Assembly: GCA_031285645.1 (NCBI GenBank)
Contig: JAITVU010000235.1
Coordinates: forward strand, 1-16,046
Origin: Oscillospiraceae bacterium
Lineage (GTDB): Bacteria; Bacillota; Clostridia; Oscillospirales; Ruminococcaceae
Reading direction: 5' to 3'
Length of the DNA: 16,046 nt
Shown: positions 1,051 to 16,018 of the stretch, piece by piece
Position numbering within the stretch: position 1 is the stretch's first letter
How the letters are laid out: every line of letters starts with the position of its first letter
Position numbers and translations under genes: made by a program
The notes under the pieces: generated by a model
Seen by the model: the letters and a program-made list of their open reading frames with translations, nothing else
Told to the model about the DNA's origin: nothing
The model's database searches: none

Positions 1051-1995
1051 TTATGCGTTCATCGCTTTTTCGGCCGAGGATGCAATCGCATCCGCGTCGA
1101 TGCCGTATTCGTGCATCATATAGCCCAGCGTCGCGGTTTCTCCGAAATGATCCTGCAATCCAAGGCGGATCAGCTTCGCTGGGAACTGTGCGCAGAGCAC
1201 CTCCGCGACCGCGCCGCCGAGTCCGCCAATCACGGAATGGTTCTCCACCGTAATAAGGAGTCTTGTCTGCTTCGCGGTTCGAATTAGCTCCTCTGTATCC
1301 AGCGGCTTTACTGTCGGCATGTGGATGTGCCGCACACCGATTCCAAGCTCGTTTAGCATGGCGGTCGCCTTGACGCCCTCGGCAGTTGCGATACCGCAGG
1401 TAATCAAGCCGACATCCGCGCCATCGCTGAGTACAATCGCTTTGCCGGGCTTAAATACGGAATCCTCCGGCAAAAAGGTAGGAAACACGCCCTTGTTGGA
1501 TCGAATATATACCGGGCCGTCGTATTCGGAAGCGAAACGCAGCACCGCGGCAAACTCATTTGCGTCGCCGGGGTCAATAACGAGGAAGCCCGGCATGGCG
1601 CGGTAAATTGCCAGATCGCTGACGGAGATGTGTGTGCCGCCGTTTTTTTCGCTGGTCAGCCCCGCGTAGGTACCAACTACCTTTACGTTGTATTTGTTGT
1701 ACGCGATTGAGTTCATGGCCTGATCGCAGGCCCGCTGCGCCATAAAGCAGGCAAACCCTGAGACAAAAGGAATCTTTCCCATTGCAGCAAGACCGGCGGA
1801 AAAACTCAGAGCGTCCTGCTCGGCAATGCCGACATTGAACATGCGCTCTGGGAAAGCCACCTTGAAAACCGCGCTTCCGGAAGCCTTCATCAGGTCGGCC
1901 TCCACTACGACAATGTTGGAATTCTCTTTTGCAAGCGCGGTTAAAGTTGCGCCATACGTAGCGTTCGTGTCCCTACGCTCCCCGAATTCTATCAT
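1051..1995 (-). CDS. Transketolase, C-terminal (pyrimidine-binding) subunit
   Basis: This is the second half of a split thiamine-diphosphate transketolase (314 aa). Together with the upstream N-terminal subunit it should transfer two-carbon ketol units between sugar phosphates. The NVGIAEQD stretch carries the glutamate (Glu59) that activates the cofactor aminopyrimidine, and NGGTHIS near residue 122 carries the family's active-site histidine. The frame is open further upstream, but the start at 1995 is chosen for two reasons: its ATG overlaps the TGA of the N-subunit by four bases (1992-1995), and it is preceded by the purine-rich GGAAGGGGTG. The overlap implies translational coupling and 1:1 subunit output. 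The alternatives in this fold are 1-deoxyxylulose-5-phosphate synthase or a 2-oxoacid dehydrogenase E1-beta, but the two-gene order and lengths fit split transketolase best. Confidence 0.93.
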   Translation of the reverse strand: MIEFGERRDTNATYGATLTALAKENSNIVVVEADLMKASGSAVFKVAFPERMFNVGIAEQDALSFSAGLAAMGKIPFVSGFACFMAQRACDQAMNSIAYNKYNVKVVGTYAGLTSEKNGGTHISVSDLAIYRAMPGFLVIDPGDANEFAAVLRFASEYDGPVYIRSNKGVFPTFLPEDSVFKPGKAIVLSDGADVGLITCGIATAEGVKATAMLNELGIGVRHIHMPTVKPLDTEELIRTAKQTRLLITVENHSVIGGLGGAVAEVLCAQFPAKLIRLGLQDHFGETATLGYMMHEYGIDADAIASSAEKAMNA

Positions 1996-2810
1996 TGCTT
2001 CGACACCCCTTCCAAGTCCGCGACACCCTGCGTGTATTGCTCCGGCGTAATCTGCCCGCTGTGCCATTTGTACTCGTTTTCCATGAAGGAGACGCCTTTC
2101 CCCTTGACGGTATTTGCAATAATCACGCTCGGCTTGCCGGTAGCTTTTTTCGCTGCCGCGACAGCGCTTAGGATCGCTTCGGTGTCGTGGCCGTCAATCG
2201 TCTGCACATGCCAGCCGAAAGCGCTCCACTTGTCGGCCAGCGGCTCCAGCGCCATGATATCCTCGGTTGTGCCGTCAATTTGATTGCGGTTGCGGTCCAC
2301 AAACGCGATCAGATGATCCAGCCTGTAATGCGACGCGGTCATTGCCGCCTCCCAGACCTGACCCTCGTCCAGCTCGCCGTCACCCATCAATACATATACA
2401 TAGCAGTTGTTTTGATCAAGCCTTGCCGCGGAGGCCATGCCGCAGGCGACGGAAATCCCTTGCCCGAGCGGGCCGGAGGAGTACTCGATTCCCTGAACCT
2501 TTAACCGATCCACATGCTTGGGCAGGCTGCCGCCGTCCTGATCGAGTTCAGCAAGGCGCGCGGGGTCTATGTAACCTAGCTTCGACAGAATTACGTACAG
2601 AGGCGGACCTGCGTGGCCTTTCGCGAGGATGAACCGGTCGCGCTCCGGCCACTCCGGCTCCCCCTGTTTTAGTTTCATAATATCAAAATGCAATGCGGTT
2701 AGAATCTCGATTGCCGAAAGCGAGCCGCCATAATGACCGCCGCCTGCGTTGTAGATGGCCTCGAAGGTTTTGCGCCGGATTTCCTGTGCTTTATTCTGCA
2801 ATCTAACCAT
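1992..2810 (-). CDS. Transketolase, N-terminal (diphosphate-binding) subunit
   Basis: This is the thiamine-diphosphate-binding half of a split transketolase (272 aa). The N-terminal part has the usual HYGGSLSAIEILTAL helix and the KGHAGPPLY loop (64-72). SGPLGQGIS (112-120) and the cofactor/magnesium motif GDGELDEG (143-150) through NRNQ (174-177) follow. The start at 2810 has AGGAGTG upstream. It lies 105 bases after the UroD-like gene, with a strong inverted repeat in the gap, and it is coupled to the C-subunit by a 4-base overlap. Such split pairs are common in Firmicutes catabolic operons as a second transketolase separate from the housekeeping one. The neighbouring dehydrogenase suggests a dedicated role in one sugar or polyol pathway (inference). 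Confidence 0.95.
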   Translation of the reverse strand: MVRLQNKAQEIRRKTFEAIYNAGGGHYGGSLSAIEILTALHFDIMKLKQGEPEWPERDRFILAKGHAGPPLYVILSKLGYIDPARLAELDQDGGSLPKHVDRLKVQGIEYSSGPLGQGISVACGMASAARLDQNNCYVYVLMGDGELDEGQVWEAAMTASHYRLDHLIAFVDRNRNQIDGTTEDIMALEPLADKWSAFGWHVQTIDGHDTEAILSAVAAAKKATGKPSVIIANTVKGKGVSFMENEYKWHSGQITPEQYTQGVADLEGVSKQ

Positions 2811-2867
2811 AATTTCACTCCTAAGAACCGAGATTTAAGCCAGATTATGTGCGGGTATCAATTGGGC

Positions 2868-2911
2868 GATTGCCGCGACAAGCTTCGGTTCTCCCGCCTG
2901 TCGCGGCAATC
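2868..2911 (-). repeat. Perfect 13-bp inverted repeat between uroD-like and transketolase genes
   Basis: GATTGCCGCGACA (2868-2880) and its exact complement TGTCGCGGCAATC (2899-2911) are separated by 18 bases. The repeat sits four bases after the UroD-like stop codon and before the transketolase N-subunit. In the direction of transcription no run of T follows, so it is not a classical intrinsic terminator. It could be a partial terminator, an mRNA processing or stability element, or a protein-binding site that sets different levels for the upstream and downstream parts of the operon. Confidence 0.7.
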
Positions 2912-2915
2912 ACAA

Positions 2916-3971
2916 TCAGCCAATCTTGTATGTATCGGCCGCCCGCAGGTTTGCTTTTAAATTGTCGATGGGTACCTGATTGACCGATCCCCCTGGCGCT
3001 AACACCAGCTTGGTTTTGCCGCCAAAGTATTGCAGCTTCTCCATGCAATGGTTATAGGTTTCCTCCTCGGTAAGGCTCTGCAGCTCCACCGGGTTGAGTC
3101 CGCCCATCAGCGATACCTTCCCCTGAGTCCTTTCCAGCGCCTTTAACGAATCGATGGCGGGTGCATATTGCCACGCGTCCCAGCCCGCTTCCTCGATCTG
3201 GTCTAACAGATGTTCCGCCGACGCATCGTTGTGAAGCCAGCGCTGTACGCCCGGGAACTCTTTAAAGATCATCCGGTAATATGGAACCACCCACTCGCGG
3301 TACTGATCCGGACTGAGGAAAGATGAAATGTCGTCGGCAACCAGAATATGGTGCAACTGGCCGCCCATCATTTTCTCTGCCGCTTTCAGGAATCGAATGC
3401 ACGTTTCGGTGCATACTTCCAACAAAGCTTTTGCCTTATCCTCCTCGACGAGAATGTCCATGCACATGTCGGAAATTCCCCGCAGCTGTGCAGCTACGGT
3501 AAACGGCCCGTGCATAACCGGCGGGTTCACCTTTAAATCGGCGGGAGCGTGCTGCAGCATATACTCCAGAGATTCGAGAGCCCGGCGCATGTAGTTGTCG
3601 CCATAGGGATCGCCCGGCTTGATTGCCAGCACGTCATCCAGTTCTTCAAGCTCCGCCGGTTTTACAGAGATAAAGCCATGTTCGTCAAAGATCACGCTTG
3701 CGCCCAAAGCACTGCACTCCGCAACCGCACCCTCGTCCGGGGCAAAGCTTCCGCAGCGCTCCAGCAGCTCCAAAACCTCAAGCTGAACATCAAAGGTCAC
3801 TTTGGGATCGTGGAAATACGCATTCAAATCCACATGAGTAACGCTCTGGTAAAAAGGGTATGTGTAGTAAAAGAACACTGCATGCCCGTCACTTTCCTGT
3901 CCGGCGATGCTTTGCTTGAGGCGCATAAAGGTTCTGTCGCGCAGGGTTTGGCTTTTTTGTGGCGTAACCAT
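2916..3971 (-). CDS. UroD-like protein (uroporphyrinogen decarboxylase / corrinoid methyltransferase fold)
   Basis: This is a cytoplasmic TIM-barrel protein of the uroporphyrinogen decarboxylase superfamily (351 aa from the chosen start). That superfamily holds haem-pathway decarboxylases and zinc methyltransferases of the MtaA/MtbA/CmuA type. Typical features are VADDISSFLSPDQYREWVVPYY (about 211-232, split here by eye) and the C-terminal LAPGG...VPIDNLKA. The position of the methyltransferase zinc motif His-x-Cys reads His247-Asn-Asp249, and the later ligand cysteine region reads Gly327-Gly328, so the standard cysteine ligands are absent. No corrinoid protein gene is nearby. The start at 3971 is preferred because GGAGGG (3982-3987) precedes it. 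A GTG at 4007, touching the upstream stop, would add 12 residues. Neither haem synthesis nor a named methyl transfer is supported, so the substrate is unknown. Confidence 0.85.
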   Translation of the reverse strand: MVTPQKSQTLRDRTFMRLKQSIAGQESDGHAVFFYYTYPFYQSVTHVDLNAYFHDPKVTFDVQLEVLELLERCGSFAPDEGAVAECSALGASVIFDEHGFISVKPAELEELDDVLAIKPGDPYGDNYMRRALESLEYMLQHAPADLKVNPPVMHGPFTVAAQLRGISDMCMDILVEEDKAKALLEVCTETCIRFLKAAEKMMGGQLHHILVADDISSFLSPDQYREWVVPYYRMIFKEFPGVQRWLHNDASAEHLLDQIEEAGWDAWQYAPAIDSLKALERTQGKVSLMGGLNPVELQSLTEEETYNHCMEKLQYFGGKTKLVLAPGGSVNQVPIDNLKANLRAADTYKIG

Positions 3972-4006
3972 AAATCGTATTCCCTCCGCTGTGTTGTCTA
4001 CAGTCA

Positions 4007-5122
4007 CTATTCAGTATAGGAAAGCTTGGGCAGCGCGTAGACGGATTTCCAACCGGGGGTGAACGGTTCTTTCAGGTAAGGAGCCATTTCCTCGCTGGTA
4101 CGCAGAGTCATCTTCTCGGCGGGTGGCACAGTTCCGGCCGGGAATGCCTCCAAATATTCGTCAATCAGCAGCGCAAGATACTTCATAATCATGAGAACCG
4201 GGCGCTTGCCCTTGGACACAGTGGCCTTTGTGGAGTGGCCCACAACGCCCTCTGGCGTGGCGTACACCTCGTTGCAGGCGTGGCCCTCGCCCTCGCTCCA
4301 ACGGGATGGACGGCGGAACGCGTCGACTGACGAGTCAAAATGTCCGCCGGGAAGAATGTCAACGGGGTCGGTATCGACAGCGTACTTCATATCCACCATC
4401 TCGGGGAACAAGAGCAGGCCGACCGAGGTTTCTGCTTCGTCCGCGTGGGTGAAGGAGGTCTCGTAATCGCCGCCGTCGCGGACGGTCGCAAACGCTTCAC
4501 GAACAGCGCGATGCCAGTCGATGCAGCGGAAGATGCCCGGCAGCTGGTATTTCTTGCAGAAACGCTGCAACGCAGCCTCAATAACCCAGAACTGGCCATG
4601 GTTGTTTACGATAATCTGCTTGCGGTAACCGTCGTTCCACAGTCCAAGCATAACGTCCTCAAGCTGACCGATCACCGTTTCCTCATGCACGACGATCGTG
4701 CCCGGCATACCGATGTGGTGCAGCGGGTGGCAACCGTAGTTAAGCGGTGGCAACGCAATGCCGACGGGCCTGCCCTTCTTGGCGGTGTAGCGGCGCACGC
4801 CCTCGCAAATGCCGGTGACAAAGAATGTGTCCATGGCGCTGCAGGTGTGGTCACCGTGCATTTCGGAGCAGCCAACCGGAATCAGGACGACATCGTTCTT
4901 TTTCTTTTCTTCCAAAACCTGATGACGTATGGTGGACTGTATGTACATACCGGGTGCGCCCAACGCAGGGGGAGAGGGTACGCCAAATTCGGCGAGCATG
5001 GTGTCGAGCTCTGCTTCTGTTGCGTCCCAGACCTCTTTCTTCATCCGGCCTACCTTGGTGTCCTCAAAACTCATTTTTCCGTCGTTGCTCCAAATCAGTT
5101 TTGGAATGTCGTTTAATGCCAT
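4007..5122 (-). CDS. Creatininase-superfamily metal-dependent hydrolase (possibly IolN-like)
   Basis: This is a 371-residue member of the creatininase superfamily, which are hydrolases with a two-metal site acting on cyclic amides or cyclic diketones. The metal-binding signature is complete: Glu87-x-His89 in GCSEMHGDH, Asp98 in AMDT, His175 in NNHGQF, and acidic residues 229/231 in HADEAETS. Typical creatininases are about 250 residues; this one has roughly 80 extra at the N-terminus and an extended C-terminus. Members of this superfamily include creatinine amidohydrolase, FAPy deformylase-type enzymes, and 3-dehydro-scyllo-inosose hydrolase (IolN of Thermotoga inositol breakdown). The company of a zinc dehydrogenase makes the IolN-type ring-opening role attractive, but it is inference. 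It is the first gene of the leftward operon, with AGGAGG at 5131-5136 eight bases before the ATG. Confidence 0.9.
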   Translation of the reverse strand: MALNDIPKLIWSNDGKMSFEDTKVGRMKKEVWDATEAELDTMLAEFGVPSPPALGAPGMYIQSTIRHQVLEEKKKNDVVLIPVGCSEMHGDHTCSAMDTFFVTGICEGVRRYTAKKGRPVGIALPPLNYGCHPLHHIGMPGTIVVHEETVIGQLEDVMLGLWNDGYRKQIIVNNHGQFWVIEAALQRFCKKYQLPGIFRCIDWHRAVREAFATVRDGGDYETSFTHADEAETSVGLLLFPEMVDMKYAVDTDPVDILPGGHFDSSVDAFRRPSRWSEGEGHACNEVYATPEGVVGHSTKATVSKGKRPVLMIMKYLALLIDEYLEAFPAGTVPPAEKMTLRTSEEMAPYLKEPFTPGWKSVYALPKLSYTE

Positions 5123-5272
5123 TGTTTTTTCCTCCTGTAAAATAGTAATAATTTCGTGTGCGAATTTTTTGTTAATATTCCCTTTATTAACCTCTCAAGA
5201 CTTCTTGACAAGCGCAGCAACATAGATTACGCTGGTGACTACACAGTAAAATACCGAAAGGAGTGGGAAATA
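5123..5272. promoter_or_regulatory. Divergent promoter region between the leftward operon and the AraC gene
   Basis: This 150-base AT-rich gap must hold the promoters for both directions. On the + strand a consensus -35 TTGACA lies at 5205-5210, with a weak -10 (TACGCT, 5228-5233) at 17-base spacing. On the - strand TTGTCA (5211-5206) is followed after 16 bases by TAATAA. The two -35 hexamers overlap almost completely. A 14-base dyad, TCAAGA-CT-TCTTGA (5195-5208), covers them and is a plausible regulator site. Ribosome binding sites lie at 5131-5136 (- strand) and 5257-5263 (+ strand, AAAGGAG). Promoter calls are by eye only. Confidence 0.5.
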
Positions 5273-6139
5273 ATGACAGCTGTTAACGTGATAGGGGCCG
5301 CAAAGAACTTTTATCCCGTCGGCTCAGGTTTTAAAGGACATGCACATCGTTATTATCAATTGTTTTATGTTGCTTCCGGGAATGTGAAAATTGTGATTGG
5401 CGAGCATGAATACCCTGCCTGCGAAAACAGCATGGTCTTTGCACAGCTTGATCAATACCACCGCCTGCAACAGATCAGCAAGGATACGGCAAAATTGTTT
5501 GATATCAAATTTTCGATATCAGACGAGACCCTGCATGCGCATGTACAGATGTTGCCACCGGTTATAGAGCTTTCGGACGCTTCTGTGCTGCAATACCTCG
5601 AAACGGCAAGAAATGAATTCCGGATGAAGCAGCCGTTTTTTAACCAGATTGCCAACGGCATCATAGAAGCTCTGCTGTGGAAGCTTATTCGGCTTCAGCA
5701 AAATGAGGTAGCCGCGCAACCTGCTCAATCGCTGATCAGGAACAAAACGCAATTTACGGGTCTTGCAAAGAAAATTGCGGATTATATAGATTCCAACTAT
5801 TGTTGCGAGCTGTCCAACCAAAGTATTGCGGATGCGCTGGGATACAATAAAAATTATTGTTGCATTGCTTTCCACGAAAACAGCGGTCTTACGATCAGCG
5901 CGTACATCAATACCGTGCGCATTTATAGCGCGGTAAACGCGATCGCTTATACAGACCACGGTTTCCCTCAGATTGCGCAAGAGGTCGGGTTTAAAAACAT
6001 TTATCATTTCAGCAGGGTATTTAAGCAGATTACCGGATATACGCCCTCCCAAGTTCGGGAATTGGAGAAAGAAGGCCTATACCACGACCGCCTGATAGAG
6101 CTTTTAGACCCATATCGTTTTGATGGCAGCGAGGTATAA
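5273..6139 (+). CDS. AraC-family transcriptional regulator
   Basis: This is a 288-residue activator/repressor. The N-terminal half is a cupin-like ligand-sensing domain (GHAHRYYQLFYVASG, about 21-35). The C-terminal 100 residues form the double helix-turn-helix of AraC/XylS proteins. The first reads IADYIDSNYCCELSNQSIADALGY, split here as residues about 167-190. The second is IAQEVGFKNIYHFSRVFKQI followed by TGYTPSQVRE. The open frame extends further upstream, but ATG 5273 is chosen for its AAAGGAG at 5257-5263 with 9-base spacing. It is transcribed divergently from the creatininase-UroD-transketolase-dehydrogenase operon, the usual arrangement for a local regulator of that operon. The inducer is unknown. 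Confidence 0.95.
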   Translation: MTAVNVIGAAKNFYPVGSGFKGHAHRYYQLFYVASGNVKIVIGEHEYPACENSMVFAQLDQYHRLQQISKDTAKLFDIKFSISDETLHAHVQMLPPVIELSDASVLQYLETARNEFRMKQPFFNQIANGIIEALLWKLIRLQQNEVAAQPAQSLIRNKTQFTGLAKKIADYIDSNYCCELSNQSIADALGYNKNYCCIAFHENSGLTISAYINTVRIYSAVNAIAYTDHGFPQIAQEVGFKNIYHFSRVFKQITGYTPSQVRELEKEGLYHDRLIELLDPYRFDGSEV

Positions 6140-6149
6140 ACGTCTGAGC

Positions 6150-6179
6150 TTGAATGGCTCTGGAGGGTTTGAATATAAA
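6150..6179 (+). promoter_or_regulatory. Candidate promoter immediately upstream of operator O1
   Basis: TTGAAT (6150-6155) and TATAAA (6174-6179) are spaced 18 bases apart, and the first operator copy begins at the very next base. A repressor bound there would cover the start of transcription. The transcript would run toward the LacI gene. Identified by eye. Confidence 0.4.
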
Positions 6180-6193
6180 TGGTTACGTAGTCA
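6180..6193. promoter_or_regulatory. Operator O1, TGGTTACGTAGTCA
   Basis: This 14-base site has dyad form TG-NN-TACGTA-NN-CA and a central CG, as is usual for LacI/GalR-family operators. It is identical to O3 (7634-7647). Similarity to O3 continues outside the core: AAAT before it and TATGTTT after it, with single-base shifts. It lies 40 bases after the AraC stop. Confidence 0.7.
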
Positions 6194-6390
6194 ATATGTT
6201 TCACAATCATCTTATCCCAGCCCAGCTATTTTGTCAATTTCTAAAAAACTACTATTTTTATCCTAAGGTCAGATTTTGTTTTTGTGGATAAAGGGAAGCT
6301 GTATTAATAAGCCAGAACCAAGATCTAGATAGAAAAAAAGCATACTTAATTGGGATAAAATACAAAAATGAAGAAAAACAGAAAATCATA

Positions 6391-6419
6391 TTGACGTATA
6401 TGATAATATATGCTATAAC
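6391..6419 (+). promoter_or_regulatory. Candidate extended -10 promoter upstream of the LacI gene
   Basis: TTGACG (6391-6396), a 17-base spacer and TATAAC (6414-6419) are preceded by TGC, giving an extended -10. By eye this is the best sigma-A-like promoter in the window. It would give a leader of about 140 bases ahead of the LacI start, with operator O2 inside that leader. Confidence 0.55.
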
Positions 6420-6493
6420 CTAATCACTGCAAATAAATGACTGTGGATTTACTCGGATGACTGCGCCATATCTTCTCATTAGGTAATATTTAC

Positions 6494-6499
6494 TATAAT
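6494..6499 (+). promoter_or_regulatory. Consensus TATAAT -10 adjoining operator O2
   Basis: A perfect TATAAT lies nine bases before operator O2, which would therefore cover the transcription start. The matching -35 region (about 6470-6477) is poor, so this may be a weak or regulated autogenous promoter for the LacI gene. Confidence 0.4.
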
Positions 6500-6507
6500 T
6501 TCCTAGA

Positions 6508-6521
6508 TGTGTACGTAGTCA
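6508..6521. promoter_or_regulatory. Operator O2, TGTGTACGTAGTCA
   Basis: It matches O1 and O3 except for two bases in the left half, and keeps the TG-NN-TACGTA-NN-CA frame. It lies 44 bases before the LacI start codon and just after a TATAAT box, the expected place for autorepression. Confidence 0.65.
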
Positions 6522-6565
6522 TTTTTTTCTAATTTTAAAACAAATTATACAGGTGAAAAAGACAT

Positions 6566-7606
6566 ATGCAAAGGAAAAAGAGCAAGAAATCAATACCCAC
6601 AACGAATGCCGCAACTTCAATAGATGTTGCAAAGTTGGCAGGCGTGTCCCAGACATCTGTATCCAGAGTGTTTAACCGTGAATGGGACGACCGCGTCAGC
6701 GACGAGCTGCGAAATAAAGTCTTATGCGCCGCCGAGGAGCTGGGTTATTCCCCCAACGCAATTGCCCGCGGGTTGATTATACAGAAAACCGGTATAATCG
6801 GAATTGTCTTAGCAGACGAGTTTAGTGTATTTTATCATCACATACTCAGCAAGCTGACAAATGCTTTTCAACAGCATGATATGCGTGTCATGGCATTCAA
6901 TATTGCCCCAGAAAATGACATCAACCAAATTATTACGCGGCTCAACCAATATCAGGTTGACGGCATCGTAATCACCAGCGCGGCAATGACACAGGTCATG
7001 TCCGAGCACTGGATTCAAAGCGGGTTGCCGTTGGTTGTGCTCAACGCGCATATGCCGGAAACCGTGTGCAACAGCGTTTATTGCGACAATTTTGGAGCCA
7101 CCGGACAAATGGCTAAGCACCTTTACGAAACCGGCAAGAGAAAATTTGCTTATGTCAGCTCAGGCAGAAGCCGGTATTCGGATCACATACAGCGGAAACA
7201 GGGCTTTCTAAATGGCTTATCGCAATTGAACATCAATGACTGCAAGGTATTCGAGGGCGATTTTAGCTACGAATCCGGGTTGGAAGCGGGCCGTACGCTG
7301 TTTTCAGAAAATGATTTTCCCGATGCGGTTTTTTGCTGCGGTGAATTGATGGCCCTAGGCGTTATGGATGTTGTCCGCAATGAATTTGGGCTTCGCATTC
7401 CCGAAGACGTCGCGGTTGCAGGATATGACGATTCATTTGCGGCATCGCTTGGCAGCTACCAGCTAACAGCCGTGCATCAGCCAATGGATCGCATGGTAGC
7501 CGACACAACTGAATTGTTGCTGAATCAAATCAATGATGCAAGGCCGGCAACGAAAAGTATATGCGAACCGATGAGTATCATTATTCGCGGCTCCACGGCA
7601 AAATAG
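6566..7606 (+). CDS. LacI/GalR-family transcriptional regulator
   Basis: This 346-residue repressor has an N-terminal LacI helix-turn-helix (SIDVAKLAGVSQTSVSRVFN, about residues 18-37), the hinge region GYSPNAIARGL, and a periplasmic-binding-protein-like effector domain. That domain contains the motifs GIIGIVLAD, DGIVITSA, VAVAGYDDS and QPMDRM. AGGTG precedes the ATG by about ten bases. Three copies of a TACGTA-centred 14-base dyad surround the gene, one directly before it and one directly before the following operon. This makes it the likely repressor of itself and of the NTF2-TRAP-amidohydrolase-lyase operon. The effector is unknown. Given the importer, a sugar acid or other carboxylate is more likely than a plain sugar (inference). 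Confidence 0.95.
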   Translation: MQRKKSKKSIPTTNAATSIDVAKLAGVSQTSVSRVFNREWDDRVSDELRNKVLCAAEELGYSPNAIARGLIIQKTGIIGIVLADEFSVFYHHILSKLTNAFQQHDMRVMAFNIAPENDINQIITRLNQYQVDGIVITSAAMTQVMSEHWIQSGLPLVVLNAHMPETVCNSVYCDNFGATGQMAKHLYETGKRKFAYVSSGRSRYSDHIQRKQGFLNGLSQLNINDCKVFEGDFSYESGLEAGRTLFSENDFPDAVFCCGELMALGVMDVVRNEFGLRIPEDVAVAGYDDSFAASLGSYQLTAVHQPMDRMVADTTELLLNQINDARPATKSICEPMSIIIRGSTAK

Positions 7607-7633
7607 CAGGCAGCATTGTTTTTATGTTTAAAT

Positions 7634-7647
7634 TGGTTACGTAGTCA
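7634..7647. promoter_or_regulatory. Operator O3, TGGTTACGTAGTCA, before the TRAP operon
   Basis: This is an exact copy of O1, located 27 bases after the LacI stop and 82 bases before the first operon gene. I found no convincing -35/-10 pair around it. TTAAAT (7628-7633) directly abuts it and could serve as a -10 element without a good -35. Confidence 0.65.
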
Positions 7648-7728
7648 TATGTTTACTTTACTTGAATTGGAGGTGCTATTATCTGAAAAACGCAATACCT
7701 CAAAAAACAGAAATGGAGTGGATGTACA

Positions 7729-8364
7729 TTGAACGAAAGAGGTCTCGCCACAAAAAAACTGCTTCAAAACCGACAAGAGCTGATGTATAAGTACAACGAC
7801 AAAACCTTTGACGTGCAAAAGTTTCTGAAAGACCGGAAAGAAATGGAACGGATTGTGTCTGAATGTCCGTTTGCGGAGCCTGAACAAATCGCCGACCATT
7901 TTATTGCCTATACCGCCGTAATCTGGGACTACAAAATGGTAGGAAAAATTTATGACTGTTATCACAATAATATTATTGTGCACCGCGAGGGCGGCGACGA
8001 TATTATTTCCTGTGAAAGCGTCATTCGCGACACCCTCCAGCTGCAGGCGGCATTTTCGGATCTGCGCATTATTTTCCACAATATTTTCTGCCAGCGCCAC
8101 GAGGGAGAAGGCGGCGGCTACCGCTTCGGGCAGGCGGTATATTTTGAAGGCACCAATGATGGCTGGAGCAAATTCGGGCCTCCTACTTTCAAGAAGCTGA
8201 CAAAAGAAAACTGTCAGGGTATGTGCGAATGCCTGGTTCAGGTAATTGACGGCCGCTGGAGAATTGCCGAGGAGTGGACAATTCGCAGCGCGGATGCCTT
8301 TGATGCGGTTATGAAGCCGGATCCCGTTGATTTGAGCAGCACAAAGCCTGTATCGCTGGTATAG
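7729..8364 (+). CDS. NTF2/SnoaL-fold protein 1 (function unknown)
   Basis: This is a 211-residue protein with a SnoaL/NTF2-like core from about residue 60. The core shows WDYK, a Y-x-x-x-NIIVHREGGDD stretch, and a terminal DGRWRIAEEW strand. This fold includes polyketide cyclases, ketosteroid isomerase and scytalone dehydratase, and also non-catalytic subunits. The core aligns end to end with that of the next gene, so the two are paralogues. A TTG start at 7729 is chosen because GGAG (7715-7718) precedes it and no in-frame ATG lies nearby until residue 19. The N-terminal 55 residues are specific to this copy and are highly charged. It is the first gene of the LacI-linked operon. Its stop codon overlaps the next gene's ribosome binding site. 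Confidence 0.85.
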   Translation: MNERGLATKKLLQNRQELMYKYNDKTFDVQKFLKDRKEMERIVSECPFAEPEQIADHFIAYTAVIWDYKMVGKIYDCYHNNIIVHREGGDDIISCESVIRDTLQLQAAFSDLRIIFHNIFCQRHEGEGGGYRFGQAVYFEGTNDGWSKFGPPTFKKLTKENCQGMCECLVQVIDGRWRIAEEWTIRSADAFDAVMKPDPVDLSSTKPVSLV

Positions 8365-8377
8365 GAGGATAAGAAAC

Positions 8378-8899
8378 ATGAAAACAGCAGTGCGACCCGA
8401 AGAGCGCGTACAGCAGCTAACGGACAGCCTGGACAACGCTTCCTTTGCAAATACGGCAGAGGTGGAAAAGTTTTATTGTGAATGGATGGAACTGGTGTGG
8501 GACTACAAAATCCCCAGTAAGCTGTTTGATTTTTATGCCCCGAATATCCATGTATACCGTGAAAACGGCGACGATTTAGAGGGCATTCAAGCAGTTGTGC
8601 AGGATGTAATGGTGGTAGAAGCCGCATTCCCGGACGTTACCATGCACGTAGAGGCGGTGGTTTGCGTGGGGAATCCTGAAGACGGTTATGAGCTGTTTGC
8701 CCGCCGGTATCTCAACGGCACAAACCTCGGATACAGCCGGTATGGCGCTCCCACTGAAAGAGTTTTGGACGACACCTGCATGAGCCTTGACATGCTAAAA
8801 TTCGAAAAAATAGACGGCAGATGGCAGGTCGTGCAGGAACATCTGAATCAAAGCACCCGGACGATCCGCGTCGCTATGGGCGGCCCTTACGAAAGATAA
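8378..8899 (+). CDS. NTF2/SnoaL-fold protein 2 (paralogue, function unknown)
   Basis: This is a 173-residue cytoplasmic protein made almost entirely of one SnoaL/NTF2-like domain. Landmarks shared with the preceding gene are LVWDYKIPSKLFDFY versus VIWDYKMVGKIYDCY, NIHVYRENGDD versus NIIVHREGGDD, and DGRW near the C-terminus. AGGAGG at 8363-8368 overlaps the previous stop. NTF2-fold proteins usually dimerise, so adjacent paralogues suggest a heterodimer. Position before a TRAP importer points to a catabolic role, perhaps as an isomerase, dehydratase or cyclase acting on the imported compound (inference). Confidence 0.88.
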   Translation: MKTAVRPEERVQQLTDSLDNASFANTAEVEKFYCEWMELVWDYKIPSKLFDFYAPNIHVYRENGDDLEGIQAVVQDVMVVEAAFPDVTMHVEAVVCVGNPEDGYELFARRYLNGTNLGYSRYGAPTERVLDDTCMSLDMLKFEKIDGRWQVVQEHLNQSTRTIRVAMGGPYER

Positions 8900-8929
8900 A
8901 AAAATATAACAATATGGAGGACATATAGC

Positions 8930-10033
8930 ATGAAAAAATTATTCGCCATTTTAACAGCCCTATGCATGATAGTCGTTCTATTTGCCGCTTGCGGCGGCAG
9001 CGGCAGCCAGACGCCGGCGTCCAGCACCGCGCCCGCTTCGTCGGAAGCGCCGACTTCGGCTTCCGCGGCAAGCCCCAGCAGTCAGGCCGAAGCGCCGGTC
9101 GGACAGGAAATTACAATTCGCGTCGCGCACCAATCGGGTGAGAACGAAAACATCCATATGGGACTTGTGAAGTTCAAAGAGGAAATCGAAGCGGCGAATG
9201 TCGGCATTAAGGTCGAGATATTCCCCAACAAACAGCTGATCAGTTCCGACCGCGACGCCATTGAAGCAACACAATTGGGCGAAATCCACATGACCTCTGT
9301 CGCAGAGATGCAGTTTGCACCTGTTGTCTCGGAATTCTATGTGTTTAACGCAAACTACCTTTTCAGTGGCCAACAGCAAGCCAAGGAAATGCTGGAAGGC
9401 GCTCCTGGCGACATGCTCAAAAAAGCCGCAATTGACAAAGGCGCGGGTGTACGGGTAGCAACCTTCTTTGGCGGCTCCCTGCGCGGTTTCTTCAACAACG
9501 TACGCGAGCTTCGCGGCCCCGATGATTTTAAAGGAATCAAAATGCGCACAGCGGAAAATCCAATCAACGTCGCGGAGCTGACCGCTTTGGGCTGCATCCC
9601 CACCCCCATGGCAGGCGGCGAGCTTTATACCGGCTTGCAGCAGGGCGCGATCGAGGGCTATATCAGCGCAACCGTTCCGCTGATCAAGCAGGGAATGCTG
9701 GAAGTGCTCAAATATGTATCTGATACAAACCAAACGATTTATATCCCCACAATCCTGATTAACGAGGAGCTGTATCAGTCCTTCTCCCCCGAGCAGCTGG
9801 AAGCGTATGAAAAAGCTATAAAAACTGCAACTGATTACCAGTGGGATCTTGTTATGCAGGAGGAAGATACCGCGAAGGAAACCCTGCGCGAGGAGCAGGA
9901 AAAAGGCAATGTTATTTACACAGAACTGACCGATGAAGAGCGCAACTCGATCAAAGAAGTCATGGTAGCAGCAACTGAAGATATGGTACTTGAAATGTGC
10001 GGCGAAGAAATCTTTAAAGCTTTCCGCAGCTAA
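8930..10033 (+). CDS. dctP: TRAP transporter substrate-binding lipoprotein (DctP family)
   Basis: This is the extracytoplasmic solute receptor of a tripartite ATP-independent transporter (367 aa). It has a lipoprotein signal peptide with lipobox LFAAC (Cys21). A Ser/Ala/Pro-rich linker (about 22-58) would hold the binding domain off the membrane. The domain shows the family's KMRTAENPI segment, with Arg206 at the position that normally salt-bridges the ligand carboxylate, and GGELYTGLQQGAIEGY (229-244). The ligand is therefore probably an organic acid such as a sugar acid, hydroxy acid or N-substituted amino acid. GGAGG at 8916-8920 precedes the start. A strong stem-loop follows the stop. Confidence 0.96.
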   Translation: MKKLFAILTALCMIVVLFAACGGSGSQTPASSTAPASSEAPTSASAASPSSQAEAPVGQEITIRVAHQSGENENIHMGLVKFKEEIEAANVGIKVEIFPNKQLISSDRDAIEATQLGEIHMTSVAEMQFAPVVSEFYVFNANYLFSGQQQAKEMLEGAPGDMLKKAAIDKGAGVRVATFFGGSLRGFFNNVRELRGPDDFKGIKMRTAENPINVAELTALGCIPTPMAGGELYTGLQQGAIEGYISATVPLIKQGMLEVLKYVSDTNQTIYIPTILINEELYQSFSPEQLEAYEKAIKTATDYQWDLVMQEEDTAKETLREEQEKGNVIYTELTDEERNSIKEVMVAATEDMVLEMCGEEIFKAFRS

Positions 10034-10045
10034 AACCATCTCAGC

Positions 10046-10074
10046 GTTGTCCGGGGAGATTCTCCCCGGACAAC
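10046..10074 (+). repeat. Perfect stem-loop between dctP and dctQ
   Basis: GTTGTCCGGGGAGA (10046-10059) and its exact complement (10061-10074) form a stem of 12 or more pairs with a loop of about five bases. There is no T-run after it, and the ribosome binding site of dctQ follows closely. It probably protects the dctP message or partly terminates transcription, so that more binding protein than membrane subunit is made, as known for REP-type hairpins in other transport operons. Confidence 0.75.
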
Positions 10075-10099
10075 ACCATAAATGGAAGGAGCGAATGTA

Positions 10100-10621
10100 A
10101 TGGCCATATTGCGTTGGCTGGATAAAAATGCTGAACTGGCGTTTTCTTCGATTATGCTGGTACTGATGGTGTTGTGTGTCAGCTTACAGGTTGTCGGGCG
10201 GTATGTCATGAAGGTGCCGAACCCCTGGACGGAGGAGGCTTCCCGCTACATGTTTGTGTATATGGTGTTTGCCTCCATTGGAATCTGTGCAAGACGCAGC
10301 AAGCATATCCGCATTACAATTATGCACTCATTGCTGCCAAAACGTCTGATTCCGTATCTTGATATCTTCAGTGACCTCTGCTTTGCCATTCTGGGCTGGG
10401 TCTGCATGACCGAGGGATATAGGCTGATGCTGGTGTTGAAAAGCTCCAACCAGGCATCTTCTTCTATGCAGTGGTTCAAAATGTGGGCGTTGTACGCCAT
10501 CGTCCCCATCGGCTTTGCATTATTGCTTGTCCGGCTGCTGCAATGCATTATCGAAAATATAAAGAAGATAATTGTCGGTGACCAGAATCCGCCTGAGCAA
10601 GCAAAGGAGGCCGATGCTTAA
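10100..10621 (+). CDS. dctQ: TRAP transporter small membrane subunit (DctQ family)
   Basis: This 173-residue protein has four predicted membrane segments (about 12-34, 48-64, 84-106, 127-148) and the family signature PWTEEASRYMFVY between the first two. It pairs with DctM to form the membrane part of the sodium-driven importer. ATG 10100 is preferred over an in-frame ATG at 10082 because GGAAGGAG (10084-10091) lies eight bases before it and the family begins close to this residue. Its TAA stop shares one base with the dctM start, indicating coupled translation. Confidence 0.94.
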   Translation: MAILRWLDKNAELAFSSIMLVLMVLCVSLQVVGRYVMKVPNPWTEEASRYMFVYMVFASIGICARRSKHIRITIMHSLLPKRLIPYLDIFSDLCFAILGWVCMTEGYRLMLVLKSSNQASSSMQWFKMWALYAIVPIGFALLLVRLLQCIIENIKKIIVGDQNPPEQAKEADA

Positions 10622-11928
10622 TGTCTATTGCGCTTTTGTTCATCTTTTTTATTGGCCTTGCAATATTAAGCATCCCGATTTCCGCGGCGATTGGCGTCGG
10701 CGTCCTTGCCTCAGTGTTCAGCAGCAATATCATCTCTTTGTCTTATGTTGTCCGCGGCATGGTCAACAATGTGGATTCTTTCACCATGACGGCCATCCCT
10801 TTCTTTGTTTTGGCCGGGCAAATCATGGCTAAGTGCGGTATTTCCAAGGGCCTGTTCGATGTGGCCAATGTGTTCATGGGCAGGCTCAAGGGCGGCGTTA
10901 TGATGGTGACGGTGCTTGCGTGTATGGCGTTTGGCGCCATCTCGGGCTCCGCCTTCGCGACGGTGGCCGCCATCGGCATGATCGCGCTTCCCGAGCTGAA
11001 AAAGCAGGGAGTGAGCAAGGGCGCCGCCGCCGCGCTGATCGCTACGTCCGGCTGTTTGGGCCAGATGATACCGCCCAGTATGGGCCTTGTGGTATATGGC
11101 GGCATGAACAACGTCTCCATCGCGAAGCTGTTTATCGCGGAAGTCATCCCCGGAATCTTTGTGGGCTGCGCTTTTTTGGTTTACTGCTATTATTATGGCA
11201 AAAAACACAATATCTGCGCCGGCGACCGCAGATATACCACAAAAGAAAAGCTGCAAACGATCTGGAATGCCAAATGGAGCCTGCTGATGCCCATCATTAT
11301 ACTGGGCGGAATTTACAGCGGCATGTTCACCCCCACCGAGGCCGCCGTTGTTTCTGTTGTCTATGGTTTTGGATACGGCGTGCTCAAGAGTACTCTACAA
11401 AAGAGACGCGGGCAGGCGCAGGACTTTCTTATCAAGAATACTGTCCCCATGCTGTATGATTCTGTTATTACAACAGCAGGCATTATGTTTCTGGTGGGAA
11501 TCTCCTCCGGCTTCGGCAAGATCCTGACACTGGAAAACGTGCCTGCCAACATGTCGAACTATGTATTGGCAAATGTTGACAGTAAATTCATGGTGCTTGT
11601 TATGATCACTCTGATTCTCCTAGTGTTAGGTACATTCCTTGACGGCACCGCCATCAACGTCATTGTCAGTCCGATATTGCTGAATATTGCGGTACAATAC
11701 GGAATTGACCCCGTTCATTTTGGCGTCATCTTTGTGTTTGTATCCACGCTCGGGCTGTTAACACCGCCGCTTGGAGCCAACCTGTTTGTCGGCTCTCAGA
11801 TCTGCGACACTACCTTCGAGGATTCAGTGAAAAACATCTGGCCCTGGATCGCCGTCATGTTTGCCGCGCTGCTGTTCATTATCTTTATTCCCGGAATGTC
11901 CATGTGGCTGCCATCGCTGATGAAATAA
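10621..11928 (+). CDS. dctM: TRAP transporter large membrane subunit (DctM family)
   Basis: This is a 435-residue polytopic transporter with about 12 hydrophobic segments and typical DctM motifs: AIPFFVLAGQIMAKCGIS, GAISGSAFATVAAIG, the TSGCLGQMIPPSMGLVVYG region, FTPTEAAVVSVVYG, and LTPPLGANLFVG near the C-terminus. It forms the ion-coupled translocation channel with DctQ. The start overlaps the dctQ stop by one base (TAATG), with AAAGGAGG at 10603-10610. The length is normal for the family and no disruption is seen. Confidence 0.97.
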   Translation: MSIALLFIFFIGLAILSIPISAAIGVGVLASVFSSNIISLSYVVRGMVNNVDSFTMTAIPFFVLAGQIMAKCGISKGLFDVANVFMGRLKGGVMMVTVLACMAFGAISGSAFATVAAIGMIALPELKKQGVSKGAAAALIATSGCLGQMIPPSMGLVVYGGMNNVSIAKLFIAEVIPGIFVGCAFLVYCYYYGKKHNICAGDRRYTTKEKLQTIWNAKWSLLMPIIILGGIYSGMFTPTEAAVVSVVYGFGYGVLKSTLQKRRGQAQDFLIKNTVPMLYDSVITTAGIMFLVGISSGFGKILTLENVPANMSNYVLANVDSKFMVLVMITLILLVLGTFLDGTAINVIVSPILLNIAVQYGIDPVHFGVIFVFVSTLGLLTPPLGANLFVGSQICDTTFEDSVKNIWPWIAVMFAALLFIIFIPGMSMWLPSLMK

Positions 11929-11968
11929 CCCCGACAAGGCCTATTATATAAGTTGAGAAGGTGTCTGA

Positions 11969-12622
11969 ATGGAAGACAAGGAAAAGATTTACACAGACAG
12001 TAAAATTGGATTTCCCATCGGGTACGGCAAACGGCCGGCCGTAATCGTCGTGGATTTGCAAAAGGGCTTTACCAGCCCCGATTCCTTCGCGGGCTGCGAC
12101 ATGACGGAGGCGGTGGAGCAGACCAACCGTATTGTAGATGCGGCCCACGAAAAAAATGTAACTGTATTTTTTGCCCGGATTGGCTATCAGTCCCCAAAAG
12201 GCGTCGACCTCGGCGCCTGGGGGCTGAAATGCCACACGGAACGTGCGTTTTCCAATCAATCCGAGCTGTACGAGCTCGACGACCGCCTGCATGTGGGCGC
12301 AAGCGATATTATATTTGAGAAGCATTGGGCGTCGGCCTTTTTCGGTACGCATTTGCTGCAAATGCTTATCAATCTGCAAGTTGACACCACAATCCTGACC
12401 GGATGCACCACGAGCGGTTGCCTTAATGCAAGTATCATTGATGCCATTTCTCACGGTTTTCGCACAATTGTGCCAAGGGAAGCCTGTTGGGACCGATCTG
12501 TGGAGCTTCACGAAATGTATTTGTGGAACATCGGCAAAAAATATGCCGACGTCGTGTCGACACAGGATTCTGTGGAATATCTGAATCGCATTGCACCCAT
12601 GCATTACGCAAATCTATGGTAA
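11969..12622 (+). CDS. Isochorismatase-family cysteine hydrolase, N-carbamoylsarcosine amidohydrolase-like
   Basis: This is a 217-residue cytoplasmic hydrolase with the full Asp-Lys-Cys triad: Asp29 (VIVVDLQKGF), Lys118 (EKHWASAFFGT) and Cys151 (GCTTSGCLNAS). The Lys-to-Cys spacing of 33 equals that of Arthrobacter N-carbamoylsarcosine amidohydrolase (Lys144, Cys177), and the ASAFFGT and GCTTSGC stretches are of that subtype. Relatives also include maleamate and nicotinamide amidohydrolases. The likely reaction is hydrolysis of an amide or carbamoyl group, releasing ammonia (and CO2 if carbamoyl). It follows dctM by 40 bases and precedes the aspartase-like lyase by 15, so its product may be the lyase substrate (inference). 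Confidence 0.92.
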   Translation: MEDKEKIYTDSKIGFPIGYGKRPAVIVVDLQKGFTSPDSFAGCDMTEAVEQTNRIVDAAHEKNVTVFFARIGYQSPKGVDLGAWGLKCHTERAFSNQSELYELDDRLHVGASDIIFEKHWASAFFGTHLLQMLINLQVDTTILTGCTTSGCLNASIIDAISHGFRTIVPREACWDRSVELHEMYLWNIGKKYADVVSTQDSVEYLNRIAPMHYANLW

Positions 12623-12637
12623 GGGGACGGATAAGCA

Positions 12638-14086
12638 ATGAATTATCGCACTGAGTCGGATTGCCTGGGAGAGCTCCAGATCGCCGATGACGTATACTAC
12701 GGGGTACAGACGGAACGCGCACGTCAGAATTTTGCACTTCCAGGCCTGACTACAGACCATTACCCTATCTATATTAACGCGGTCGCTGCTATCAAAAAAG
12801 CAGCGGCTTTGGCGCACAGCGAATTGGGCGTTCTTGATCCAATCATTGCGGAAGCAATTGGCAAAGCGGTCGATGAAATCATTGACGGCAAGCTTGCGGG
12901 CAACTTTCCGCTCCACATGCTGCAGGGAGGCGGCAGCACTTCCACAAATATGAACGTCAATGAGGTGATCGCGAACCGCGCAAACGAGATTTTGACCGGG
13001 CACAAGGGTTACGATTGTGTTCACCCGAATGATCATGTAAACATGGGGCAATCCACCAACGATGTGATTCCAGCGGCAGTTAAGTTAACAGCATACATAT
13101 ATGCCTCTTCTCTGGTAGAGGAACTGGAACGGTTTTGTACCGCTCTTGCGGATAAAGAGAAGGAATTTGCGTCGATTGTAAAGCTGGGGCGCACCTGCTT
13201 GCAGGATGCGATGCCCGTTACGCTGGGTCAGGAATTTTCCGGCTACCGTTCCATAATATCACGTCGGGCGATGAAGCTGAATGAGGCAAAGCAGGACTGC
13301 CTTGCTTTACCGCTGGGTGCGACCGCCATTGGCACTGGCTCCGGCAGCTTTGCGGGATACAGGGAACGGGTCATTCCGCTATTGTCCGAGATCACGGATC
13401 TTAGCCTGACGAGCGAAGAAAACCTGTTTGACGGTCTTCAAAATGCAGACGCATATCTGGATGTCATGCAGGCCGTAAAGAACGCTGCCGTTGCCGTTTC
13501 AAAGATCGCGACAGATTTGCGGCTGCTGTCCTCCGGTCCGAGAGCTGGCCTGAATGAAATCCAGCTTCCGGCCGTTCAACCGGGTTCCTCAATTATGCCG
13601 GGAAAAATCAACCCGGTCATGCCGGAGCTGATGAATCAGATCTGCTACCAAGTTTGCGGGAATGAGCTGGCCATTTCCATGGCCGTGGAGGGTGGCGAGC
13701 TGGATCTTAATGTCTGGGAACCGGTAGTTTTGCGTAATCTATGCGAATCCGCGGGGATGCTCGAGCATGGACTGCGCCTGTTCCGTGAGCGCTGTGTTAT
13801 GGGAATAGAGGCCAATGCTTCTGTTTGCCGAAAATATGCCGAGGAATCGCTATCCATATCCAGTGTTGTAAGTGCGCTGTTTGACTATAAAACCGGTACG
13901 CTTGTTTCTCAGAAGGCATACGCGGAAGACAAGACTATAGCGCAGGCCGCCGTGGAGCTTGGCATCCTTTCGCAGGATGAGGCAAAAACACTATTGGATC
14001 CGCTGCGCATGACAAATAATCAGGAGCTTTCCGAAATGTTGATGCGCTTTCGGAGGGAAAAGCATTCACCCGAAGAAAAGAAATAG
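12638..14086 (+). CDS. aspA: Aspartate ammonia-lyase-like enzyme (aspartase/fumarase superfamily)
   Basis: This is a 482-residue lyase that removes ammonia (or another group) across a C-C bond to give fumarate. The superfamily signature loop GSSIMPGKINPVMPE (316-330) contains the probable catalytic base Ser317, Lys323 and Asn325. STSTNMNVNE (100-109), GQSTND (137-142) and LLSSGPRAGLNEI (296-308) match aspartases. The substrate-contact pair that reads Thr-His in Bacillus AspB and Thr-Gln in E. coli AspA reads Thr186-Cys187 here, so specificity may differ from plain aspartate. The start at 12638 has AAGGGG upstream and lies 15 bases after the amidohydrolase stop. The length matches the family. 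The TAG stop is the first triplet of a palindrome. Confidence 0.9.
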   Translation: MNYRTESDCLGELQIADDVYYGVQTERARQNFALPGLTTDHYPIYINAVAAIKKAAALAHSELGVLDPIIAEAIGKAVDEIIDGKLAGNFPLHMLQGGGSTSTNMNVNEVIANRANEILTGHKGYDCVHPNDHVNMGQSTNDVIPAAVKLTAYIYASSLVEELERFCTALADKEKEFASIVKLGRTCLQDAMPVTLGQEFSGYRSIISRRAMKLNEAKQDCLALPLGATAIGTGSGSFAGYRERVIPLLSEITDLSLTSEENLFDGLQNADAYLDVMQAVKNAAVAVSKIATDLRLLSSGPRAGLNEIQLPAVQPGSSIMPGKINPVMPELMNQICYQVCGNELAISMAVEGGELDLNVWEPVVLRNLCESAGMLEHGLRLFRERCVMGIEANASVCRKYAEESLSISSVVSALFDYKTGTLVSQKAYAEDKTIAQAAVELGILSQDEAKTLLDPLRMTNNQELSEMLMRFRREKHSPEEKK

Positions 14087-14467: not shown

Positions 14468-16018
14468 ATGCCGGGCCCGTCTAGTTCACACTCAGCTGGA
14501 TGTGCCAGAATTGGCAGAATGACAAGGCTATTATATGGCGGAGAAATTCGACGCGCAGCCGTTATTTTTGATGAAAACGGGGCTTATCCCAGCACATACA
14601 TCGGGCAGGGATCAAACTTTGGCTTCACTGGCGGATTGATGGGGTTACTTAACGATGACCCCGATCTAAAGGATGCGGTAAGCCTTGCACAAGATTCGGG
14701 ATACGACATTACATTCCATAAGGAGCAACTAAGTGCGCGCCATCCAAATGAAGCCCGAATTGATATCTATGATGAAAATAATGAAATAGCGATGTCTGTA
14801 CTGACTTTTTCTACAGGCGGAGGTATGTTTGAAATCGTAAATATGGATGGCTTTCCTGTCTTCATGGATGGGAGCAAGCAGCATATTTATATATGTTGCT
14901 TATCTGAGGCGGCACAAGAATTGAGAACGCAGCTCAATAAGATGTCTGTCTCTCTTGAAGTATGTACGCAAAAAGATAAGACACTATTCTCAGTGCTGGA
15001 ATACAGAGGAGAGGATGAGCCATCTCTTCTGGACTTACAGCACTGCTTTGGAGTTCACTGGATTAGAAAGGCTCATGCGATATTGCCTGTCATGATTCGA
15101 TACGATGCATCTCCCGTTTTTACCTCCGCCAAAGAAGCGTTACTATATTCGGAAGAATTCCACAAAGAGGCGTGGGAGTTAGCCATTGACTACGAATCTT
15201 CAGTAGGAGTCGTTAAGCCGGACGATGTGTGGAGAATGGCTGAACATACTCTTCAGATTATGAAAAGATCCATTGATCCCCCTAATCCTGACAGTACTAC
15301 ACAATTTGGATTTTTACCTTACCAATCATTAAAAATGAATGACGCAATCCCATTAACTACATCAGTAGATGCTGGAGTTTTGAACAAAGCGGCAATGATG
15401 GCCATCGCGGTAATGGAGAACAACTGTGCTCACAATATGATAGTCGCTGCTCCGACAGCAGGATCAAGCGGGGTAATTCCATCTGCAATTTTTTCAGTGG
15501 GAGAGCAGTTGCAGTGCTCTGAGAGTCAGCTTTTGAAAGGATTGCTGACAGCCGGTCTGGTTGGCTCCTTTATCGCGAACCAAGCCACCTTTGGAGCGGA
15601 GGTAGCCGCTTGCCAAGCGGAAAACGGGGCAGCAAGCGCAATGGCCGCCGCCAGTATCGTCCAAATGCTTGGTGGTACCGTGCGCCAGTCGTTTATGGCC
15701 GCATCACTGGCGTTGCAAAATATGCTTGGCTTGGTATGTGACCCTGTTGGAGGCCTGACAGAAATACCCTGCATCAGCCGAAATGTGAGCGCCGTAGCCA
15801 ATGTCGCTCTATCTGCGAATATTGTAATTTGGGGATTTGATCCTGTAATACCCTTGGATGAAACAATAATATCAATGTTTCATGTTGGAAAGATGCTTCC
15901 ATGGGAACTGCGCTGTACATGCAAAGGAGGACTCTGCACAACAGAAACAGGAATGACTATAGCAAAACGCATGGAGCGTGAACGACAGGATGCGACTAGT
16001 AAAACCATGGAAGACTGA
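14468..16018 (+). CDS. Iron-sulfur L-serine dehydratase-like protein, beta and alpha domains in one chain
   Basis: This protein belongs to the oxygen-sensitive [4Fe-4S] serine dehydratase family (serine to pyruvate plus ammonia). From ATG 14468 it has 516 residues. The N-terminal beta domain opens with GPSSSHSAG; the alpha domain holds APTAGSSGVIPS (328-339), NGAASAMAAAS and CDPVGGLTEIPC. Cys382, Cys424 and Cys435 are spaced 42 and 11 apart, the same as the cluster ligands known from Legionella serine dehydratase (343, 385, 396). The usual Gly-rich segment before the alpha core is diverged (FGFLPYQSLKMND), so another beta-hydroxy amino acid is possible. The frame continues upstream to 14390 and encodes SINSIFNSVLGPV, which resembles the normal family N-terminus, so the real start is probably a non-ATG codon near 14426-14432. 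The gene looks more AT-rich than its neighbours. Confidence 0.9.
   Translation: MPGPSSSHSAGCARIGRMTRLLYGGEIRRAAVIFDENGAYPSTYIGQGSNFGFTGGLMGLLNDDPDLKDAVSLAQDSGYDITFHKEQLSARHPNEARIDIYDENNEIAMSVLTFSTGGGMFEIVNMDGFPVFMDGSKQHIYICCLSEAAQELRTQLNKMSVSLEVCTQKDKTLFSVLEYRGEDEPSLLDLQHCFGVHWIRKAHAILPVMIRYDASPVFTSAKEALLYSEEFHKEAWELAIDYESSVGVVKPDDVWRMAEHTLQIMKRSIDPPNPDSTTQFGFLPYQSLKMNDAIPLTTSVDAGVLNKAAMMAIAVMENNCAHNMIVAAPTAGSSGVIPSAIFSVGEQLQCSESQLLKGLLTAGLVGSFIANQATFGAEVAACQAENGAASAMAAASIVQMLGGTVRQSFMAASLALQNMLGLVCDPVGGLTEIPCISRNVSAVANVALSANIVIWGFDPVIPLDETIISMFHVGKMLPWELRCTCKGGLCTTETGMTIAKRMERERQDATSKTMED

Follow-up and report, generated by a model that had tools for sequence, protein, structure and literature searches.

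Three copies of one palindrome surround a lacI-like gene in the window (the whole stretch of DNA that was analysed, 16,046 bases), and the question is whether they are the operators of the protein encoded between them. A pattern scan of the entire window recovered exactly three copies of the dyad TGNNTACGTANNCA, termed O1, O2 and O3 (Table 1), at the positions given in the first-pass annotation; the motif occurs nowhere else in the window, as that annotation also stated, and no further copy appears even when one mismatch is allowed. Under a first-order Markov model 0.007 exact copies are expected in the window, and the probability of three or more is about 6e-8. Shuffled windows carried a mean of 0.32 copies at up to one mismatch, and three were reached in 1 of 200 shuffles. 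The symmetry is exact at TG, TACGTA and CA only, the NN pairs being asymmetric. The identity of O1 and O3 across 14 bases and the centre-to-centre distances of 328, 1126 and 1454 bp, both noted earlier, were confirmed by the window scan, and the right half, TACGTAGTCA, is common to all three sites.

Table 1. Positions of the predicted operators, promoter-like boxes, regulator and operon genes in the window.
Feature	Position	Strand	Remarks
araC-like gene	5156-6139		O1 begins 40 bp after it
-10-like TATAAA	6174..6179	+	abuts O1; TTGAAT at 6150, spacer 18; not in sigma-70 scan list
O1, TGGTTACGTAGTCA	6180..6193		372 bp before lacI; matrix score 14.7, tied second
-10-like TATAAT	6494..6499	+	8 bp before O2; no clear -35; not in sigma-70 scan list
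O2, TGTGTACGTAGTCA	6508..6521		44 bp before lacI start codon; matrix score 15.3, first in window
LacI-family repressor, 346 aa	6566..7606	+	recognition segment VSQTSVSR, hinge ARGL
O3, TGGTTACGTAGTCA	7634..7647		between lacI stop and first operon gene; matrix score 14.7
SnoaL/NTF2-like protein 1	7729..8364	+	first operon gene; no Pfam match; BLASTP to SnoaL relatives
SnoaL-like protein 2	8378..8899	+	SnoaL 24.3 bits, below cut-off 28.4
TRAP solute-binding protein DctP	8930..10033	+	best solved match is an isethionate binder
Probable TRAP small permease DctQ	10082..10621	+	from ORF and position
Probable TRAP large permease DctM	10621..11928	+	from ORF and position
Isochorismatase-fold amidohydrolase	11969..12622	+	best solved match N-carbamoylsarcosine amidohydrolase
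Aspartase/fumarase-family lyase	12638..14086	+	family match

The protein encoded between the dyads is a member of the LacI family, combining a LacI helix-turn-helix domain (PF00356, 53.3 bits, cut-off 27) with a periplasmic-binding-protein-like ligand domain (PF13377, 96.3 bits, cut-off 26.5). Its first recognition residue, after VS in the recognition segment, is Gln (hereafter Gln-type). Identity with RbsR, PurR or CcpA was rejected, the NCBIfam equivalog scores of 193, 172 and 154 falling below the respective cut-offs of 382, 501 and 442. The closest plasmid relatives (best ten of the matches in 4316 records) are at most 39.7% identical to the regulator, and the best relatives within the genus and order are 36-37% identical. 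At E 1e-82 there was no other regulator match in 398 genomes of the phylum, own and same-class genomes included. An exact-peptide contig scan returned one distant relative (L035, 25% identical), which lacks the core. The source genome itself has four regulator matches, the window's included; two of the others were examined, and the recognition helix was readable by script in one. Near one LacI paralogue of that genome (C337, VSIATVSR) the palindrome is another one, TGTAAGCGCTTACA.

As CG-centred even palindromes near both the regulator's own gene and its likely target operon, the dyads have the form and placement of LacI-family operators. The centre of O2 lies about 51 bp before lacI, that of O3 about 88 bp before the operon and that of O1 about 380 bp before lacI. 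According to the text of the survey by Ravcheev et al. (2014, PMC4052901), more than 75% of LacI-family sites fall within a zone 30-140 bp upstream and a central CG is the rule. O2 and O3 fall inside this zone, and O1 belongs to a far-upstream class of about 7%. Like the local regulators described there, the window regulator adjoins its target operon and has more than one site, with CG-centred even dyads 30-140 bp upstream. The target differs, however: 176 of the 182 groups with assigned pathways in the survey control carbohydrates, whereas the window operon (TRAP transporter, amidohydrolase, aspartase-family lyase and SnoaL) looks non-sugar. TACGTA was not found in the main text of the survey.

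Both O1 and O2 had been described as directly following -10-like boxes, which is accurate for O1 and not for O2, where the TATAAT box ends short of the dyad. A sigma-70 consensus scan of 6100-7800 returned six promoter-like sites against a shuffle mean of 4.6. Because this is background level and the scan lists no promoter at O1, O2 or O3, the promoter assignments are weak, and we treat the proposed promoters at O1 and O2 as suggestions. No unusual RNA structure was seen between lacI and the operon (z 0.64), and a search for a small ORF between O1 and lacI yielded nothing convincing.

The first-pass annotation asked whether matches to the motif track relatives of the regulator. In loci of 8-20 kb chosen by similarity to the regulator, the exact core was found in 11 of 18 with a Gln-type protein (15 sites against 0.06 expected) and in none of eight without one (L058, L060 and L093-L098; 0 sites against 0.05 expected). 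The Gln-type set includes L050, where the closest regulator is Arg-type and the second Gln-type. From the 60 matches listed (180 records) 12 loci were taken, picked for spread of organism and identity and not at random; nine of the 16 same-class matches outside the window were examined as large regions. Within 1.5 kb of the gene, the core accompanied 5 of 22 Gln-type and 0 of 42 other proteins (Fisher p 0.0035), a comparison that leaves out ten duplicate loci, six rows with a recognition residue unreadable by script (the core-bearing L091 among them) and L001-L005, L035-L037, L047, L048 and L061-L072. In all four top-scoring same-class genomes (320-360 bits) the core lies close to lacI or immediately precedes a SnoaL gene of the cluster. 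Among the 12 matches that follow, at 261 bits or less, there is neither a Gln-type regulator nor a core; five were examined over 17-18 kb and seven within 1.5 kb only.

Carriers of the core belong to the Alpha-, Beta- and Gammaproteobacteria, Actinomycetota and Bacillota, together with four genomes of the window's own class. In the plasmid loci with gene tables (L046, L048, L054, L055, L057 and L059), seven of eight exact cores are intergenic. Polaromonas (L054) has a pair immediately ahead of lacI, and in Geobacillus (L046) and Roseomonas (L055) a single copy separates lacI from hisD; the exception, in Vibrio (L059), overlaps the opening codons of a gene annotated as a symporter and may be a chance occurrence. 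Among the same-class genomes, G726 (L090) has two cores at the start of lacI. In G956 (L091) and G926 (L092) a single core follows lacI and either precedes the next gene or coincides with its start, and in G953 (L089) the single core separates two SnoaL-like genes and lies immediately ahead of the second. SnoaL similarity also led to two loci, one in Deinococcus (L048) with two cores and one in the archaeon Halobellus (L047) with none. A matrix built from 17 outside sites places O2, O3 and O1 at the top of the window, the next score being 11.2, and in the eight non-Gln loci scores reach 11.7 at most; since its sites were collected with the window's core, this ranking is a test of consistency and not independent.

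Seven Gln-type loci of the 18 yielded no exact core. One-mismatch versions occur in L051, L052 and L053, a pair of dyads centred on TTCGAA, ATGCATTCGAATGCAA and ATGCATTCGAATTCAC, occurs in L056, and the scan of L044, L049 and L050 showed no convincing core. Same-genus Gln-type relatives (G003, G005 and G006) have no core within loci of 2.8-3.9 kb, and their hinge departs from ARxL. In the genomes searched, no orthologous operon keeping this gene order turned up. Overall, computation shows that the core accompanies many Gln-type relatives in several phyla and is absent from the examined loci with other recognition residues.

The motif had also been offered as a means of finding distant regulon members, provided that it is not frequent at random. 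The source assembly (2.24 Mb in 428 contigs, 70.55% complete) contains four exact copies of TGNNTACGTANNCA, the window's three included, against none for a reversed-pattern control; scaling from the window's composition gives a chance expectation of about one exact copy in the whole assembly. The fourth copy (C263:3404) falls within a 303-aa open frame. Relaxing the search to at most one mismatch raises the count to 23, the four exact copies included, compared with 16 for the reversed control, which is near background. Thus we claim no distant regulon member, and none was found in the assembled genome.

The first-pass annotation called the spacing of the three sites compatible with looping. 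A tetrameric repressor would then bridge O1, O2 and O3, and a same-order genome (G406:C21) likewise has a lacI gene bracketed by two dyads. Spacing by itself is weak support, though, and the protein argues against this arrangement. The tetramerisation tail of LacI comprises residues about 340-357, whereas the alignment of E. coli LacI (1lbg) to the regulator stops at residue 329 of 360, and the regulator ends in IIIRGSTAK, with no LacI-type tetramerisation helix. Because this tail is missing, looping by the repressor alone is unlikely. GalR-type looping uses a helper protein, and dimer looping of that kind may apply here.

Considerably less probable is that the dyads serve another regulator, either the araC-like protein, whose gene ends just short of O1, or a global CcpA-like protein, whose cre operators look similar to these 14-base, CG-centred dyads. 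Across phyla the motif goes with the lacI-like gene, which speaks against both. The cre consensus is TGNNANCGNTNNCA, and none of the three dyads conforms to it, the T at position 5 and the A at position 10 breaking it. The draft assembly adds a single exact copy outside the window, and so shows no sign of a global regulon. That the dyads are chance palindromes or remnants of local duplication can be set aside almost completely: a 25-nt context around them is repeated at 72-76% identity, but the repeat within 6100-7760 spans just those 25 nt, the expected copy number is minute, and the locus scan, in which the motif recurs elsewhere, already contradicts this explanation.

On the sequence evidence the LacI-family protein (6566-7606) very probably has the three dyads as its operators, with O2 predicted to mediate autorepression, O3 to mediate repression of the operon and O1 to have, probably, an auxiliary or second-promoter role. 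This operator prediction is sound because the same site recurs beside related regulators in distant bacteria. When no inducer is present, a repressor dimer would bind O2 and limit its own transcription, and binding at O3, upstream of the SnoaL-SnoaL-TRAP-amidohydrolase-lyase operon (7729-14086), would block that operon. A small molecule imported by the TRAP transporter, or its catabolite, would then release the repressor. For O1, the likeliest role is that of an auxiliary site or of an operator over a second lacI promoter. Of the earlier interpretation, the operators, autorepression and control of the 7729-14086 operon gain support from the recurrence of the motif beside homologous regulators in other phyla, whereas looping by the repressor and, in this 70.55% complete assembly, a wider regulon were not supported. 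The circuit is of the ordinary local LacI-family type; its target is unusual and apparently non-sugar. A dyad noticed by eye has in this way become a regulator-operator pair supported across phyla, and it offers a 14-16 base tag for finding further clusters of the sub-group.

The base sequence of the operator appears to change with the recognition residue. Arg-type relatives (VSRSAVSR) on Limimaricola (L058) and Paracoccus (L060) plasmids each have two perfect copies of TTGCAACCGGTTGCAA, and the Gln/Arg contrast falls at positions 3 and 2 from the operator centre, which are TA with Gln and AC with Arg. In both plasmids the Arg-type lacI adjoins iol genes, and lacI and iolD are each preceded by one copy of TTGCAACCGGTTGCAA; the two loci form a natural pair for the Gln/Arg recognition switch. 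In G406:C21 the relative is Thr-type (VSTITVSR), and its gene lies between TGATTGCGCTATCA and TGATAACGCTATCA, alike in 12 of 14 bases. These flank lacI 1,119 bp apart, compared with 1,126 bp between O2 and O3, and thus the layout is repeated with another dyad. Its neighbours are genes for a UROD-like protein (54% identity to that of the window) and a TRAP binding protein (26%). The TTCGAA-centred locus (L056) is from Klebsiella aerogenes (LR134124), where a Gln-type lacI is divergent from a histidinol-dehydrogenase-like gene named hpsN; its two dyads lie between these genes and are half-site relatives of TTGCATACGTATGCAA.

Camas et al. (2010, PMC2978694) describe recognition-helix residues that co-vary with operator bases, in a code that, as set out in that text, applies to the TVSR set and concerns operator positions 5 and 4. 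Recognition residue and operator bases vary together here as well. Unlike in that code, the window protein has SVSR and the Gln/Arg contrast lies at positions 3 and 2 from the centre. With its Gln after VS and a TACGTA core nearby, the window regulator shows both traits of the Gln-type sub-group. A wider reading of this sub-group we put forward only tentatively: a mobile, cross-phylum set of Gln-type LacI proteins that may read TACGTA and switch an undescribed, largely non-sugar SnoaL/NTF2-fold catabolism with UROD-like and creatininase/IolN-like enzymes. A change of the first residue from Gln to Arg or Thr might rewrite the core while the layout is kept.

The gene content of related loci varies around this regulator. 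Four aligned plasmid relatives, from Ensifer, Sinorhizobium, Ruegeria and Geobacillus, are 38-40% identical to it and Gln-type (VSQSAVSR or VSQSTVSR). The Ensifer, Sinorhizobium and Geobacillus clusters share the window's operator core, and the loci of Ensifer (L043), Sinorhizobium and Ruegeria (L044) have SnoaL-type genes in common with it, which in Ruegeria are annotated 'ester cyclase' and adjoin the regulator and in Ensifer appear as a SnoaL match within the locus; the Ensifer and Sinorhizobium records come without a gene table. Where the window has a TRAP transporter, amidohydrolase and lyase, the Ruegeria locus, which lacks the core, has a sugar-type ABC transporter and a histidinol-dehydrogenase-like gene, and the Geobacillus locus (L046) has a histidinol-dehydrogenase-like gene and no annotated SnoaL. 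A Roseibium locus (L049) combines a LacI of the same type with a TRAP transporter, without the core. In G726 (L090) the Gln-type lacI and its two cores head a different cluster, encoding a sulfolactate-dehydrogenase-like oxidoreductase and IolN-like, SDR, sugar-isomerase-like, UROD-like and four-carbon-acid-kinase-like proteins, all scoring under their NCBIfam cut-offs except the SDR.

For the first SnoaL protein no relative was found at E 1e-3 in 296 other genomes of the same family, and at E 1e-12 there were two others, G953 and G823, in a 391-genome sample of the class (own genome included). No paper describing a SnoaL/LacI module was identified by title or abstract opening among the matches listed for open-licence papers. 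On the other side of the window, a divergent operon (1051-5122, minus strand) encodes a split transketolase, a UROD-like (MtaA/CmuA-related) protein and a creatininase-fold protein that scores 321 bits against the NCBIfam cut-off of 245 for the 3-dehydro-scyllo-inosose hydrolase IolN. G823 has two SnoaL relatives together with UROD-like (53%) and IolN-like (32%) genes, and no TACGTA core or regulator match at E 1e-70. This pairing resembles the divergent left operon, and thus the whole window may be one catabolic locus; the recurrence of UROD-like and IolN-like genes with SnoaL relatives in G823 suggests a single pathway.

The interest of the locus lies in this apparently non-sugar, uncharacterised SnoaL-based pathway. 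The operon gene set (TRAP, SnoaL, amidohydrolase and lyase) appears non-sugar, and a sulfonate (from the DctP match), a creatinine-type and an inositol-type compound are possible leads for its substrate, to which the repressor's inducer would give direct access. Beyond the operon, at a distance of about 380 bp, an L-serine ammonia-lyase-like gene (14468-16018) carries beta and alpha parts in one frame, each under its NCBIfam cut-off. A LacI of the same type and an NTF2-like gene are also found near an L-serine ammonia-lyase in Vibrio europaeus (L059).
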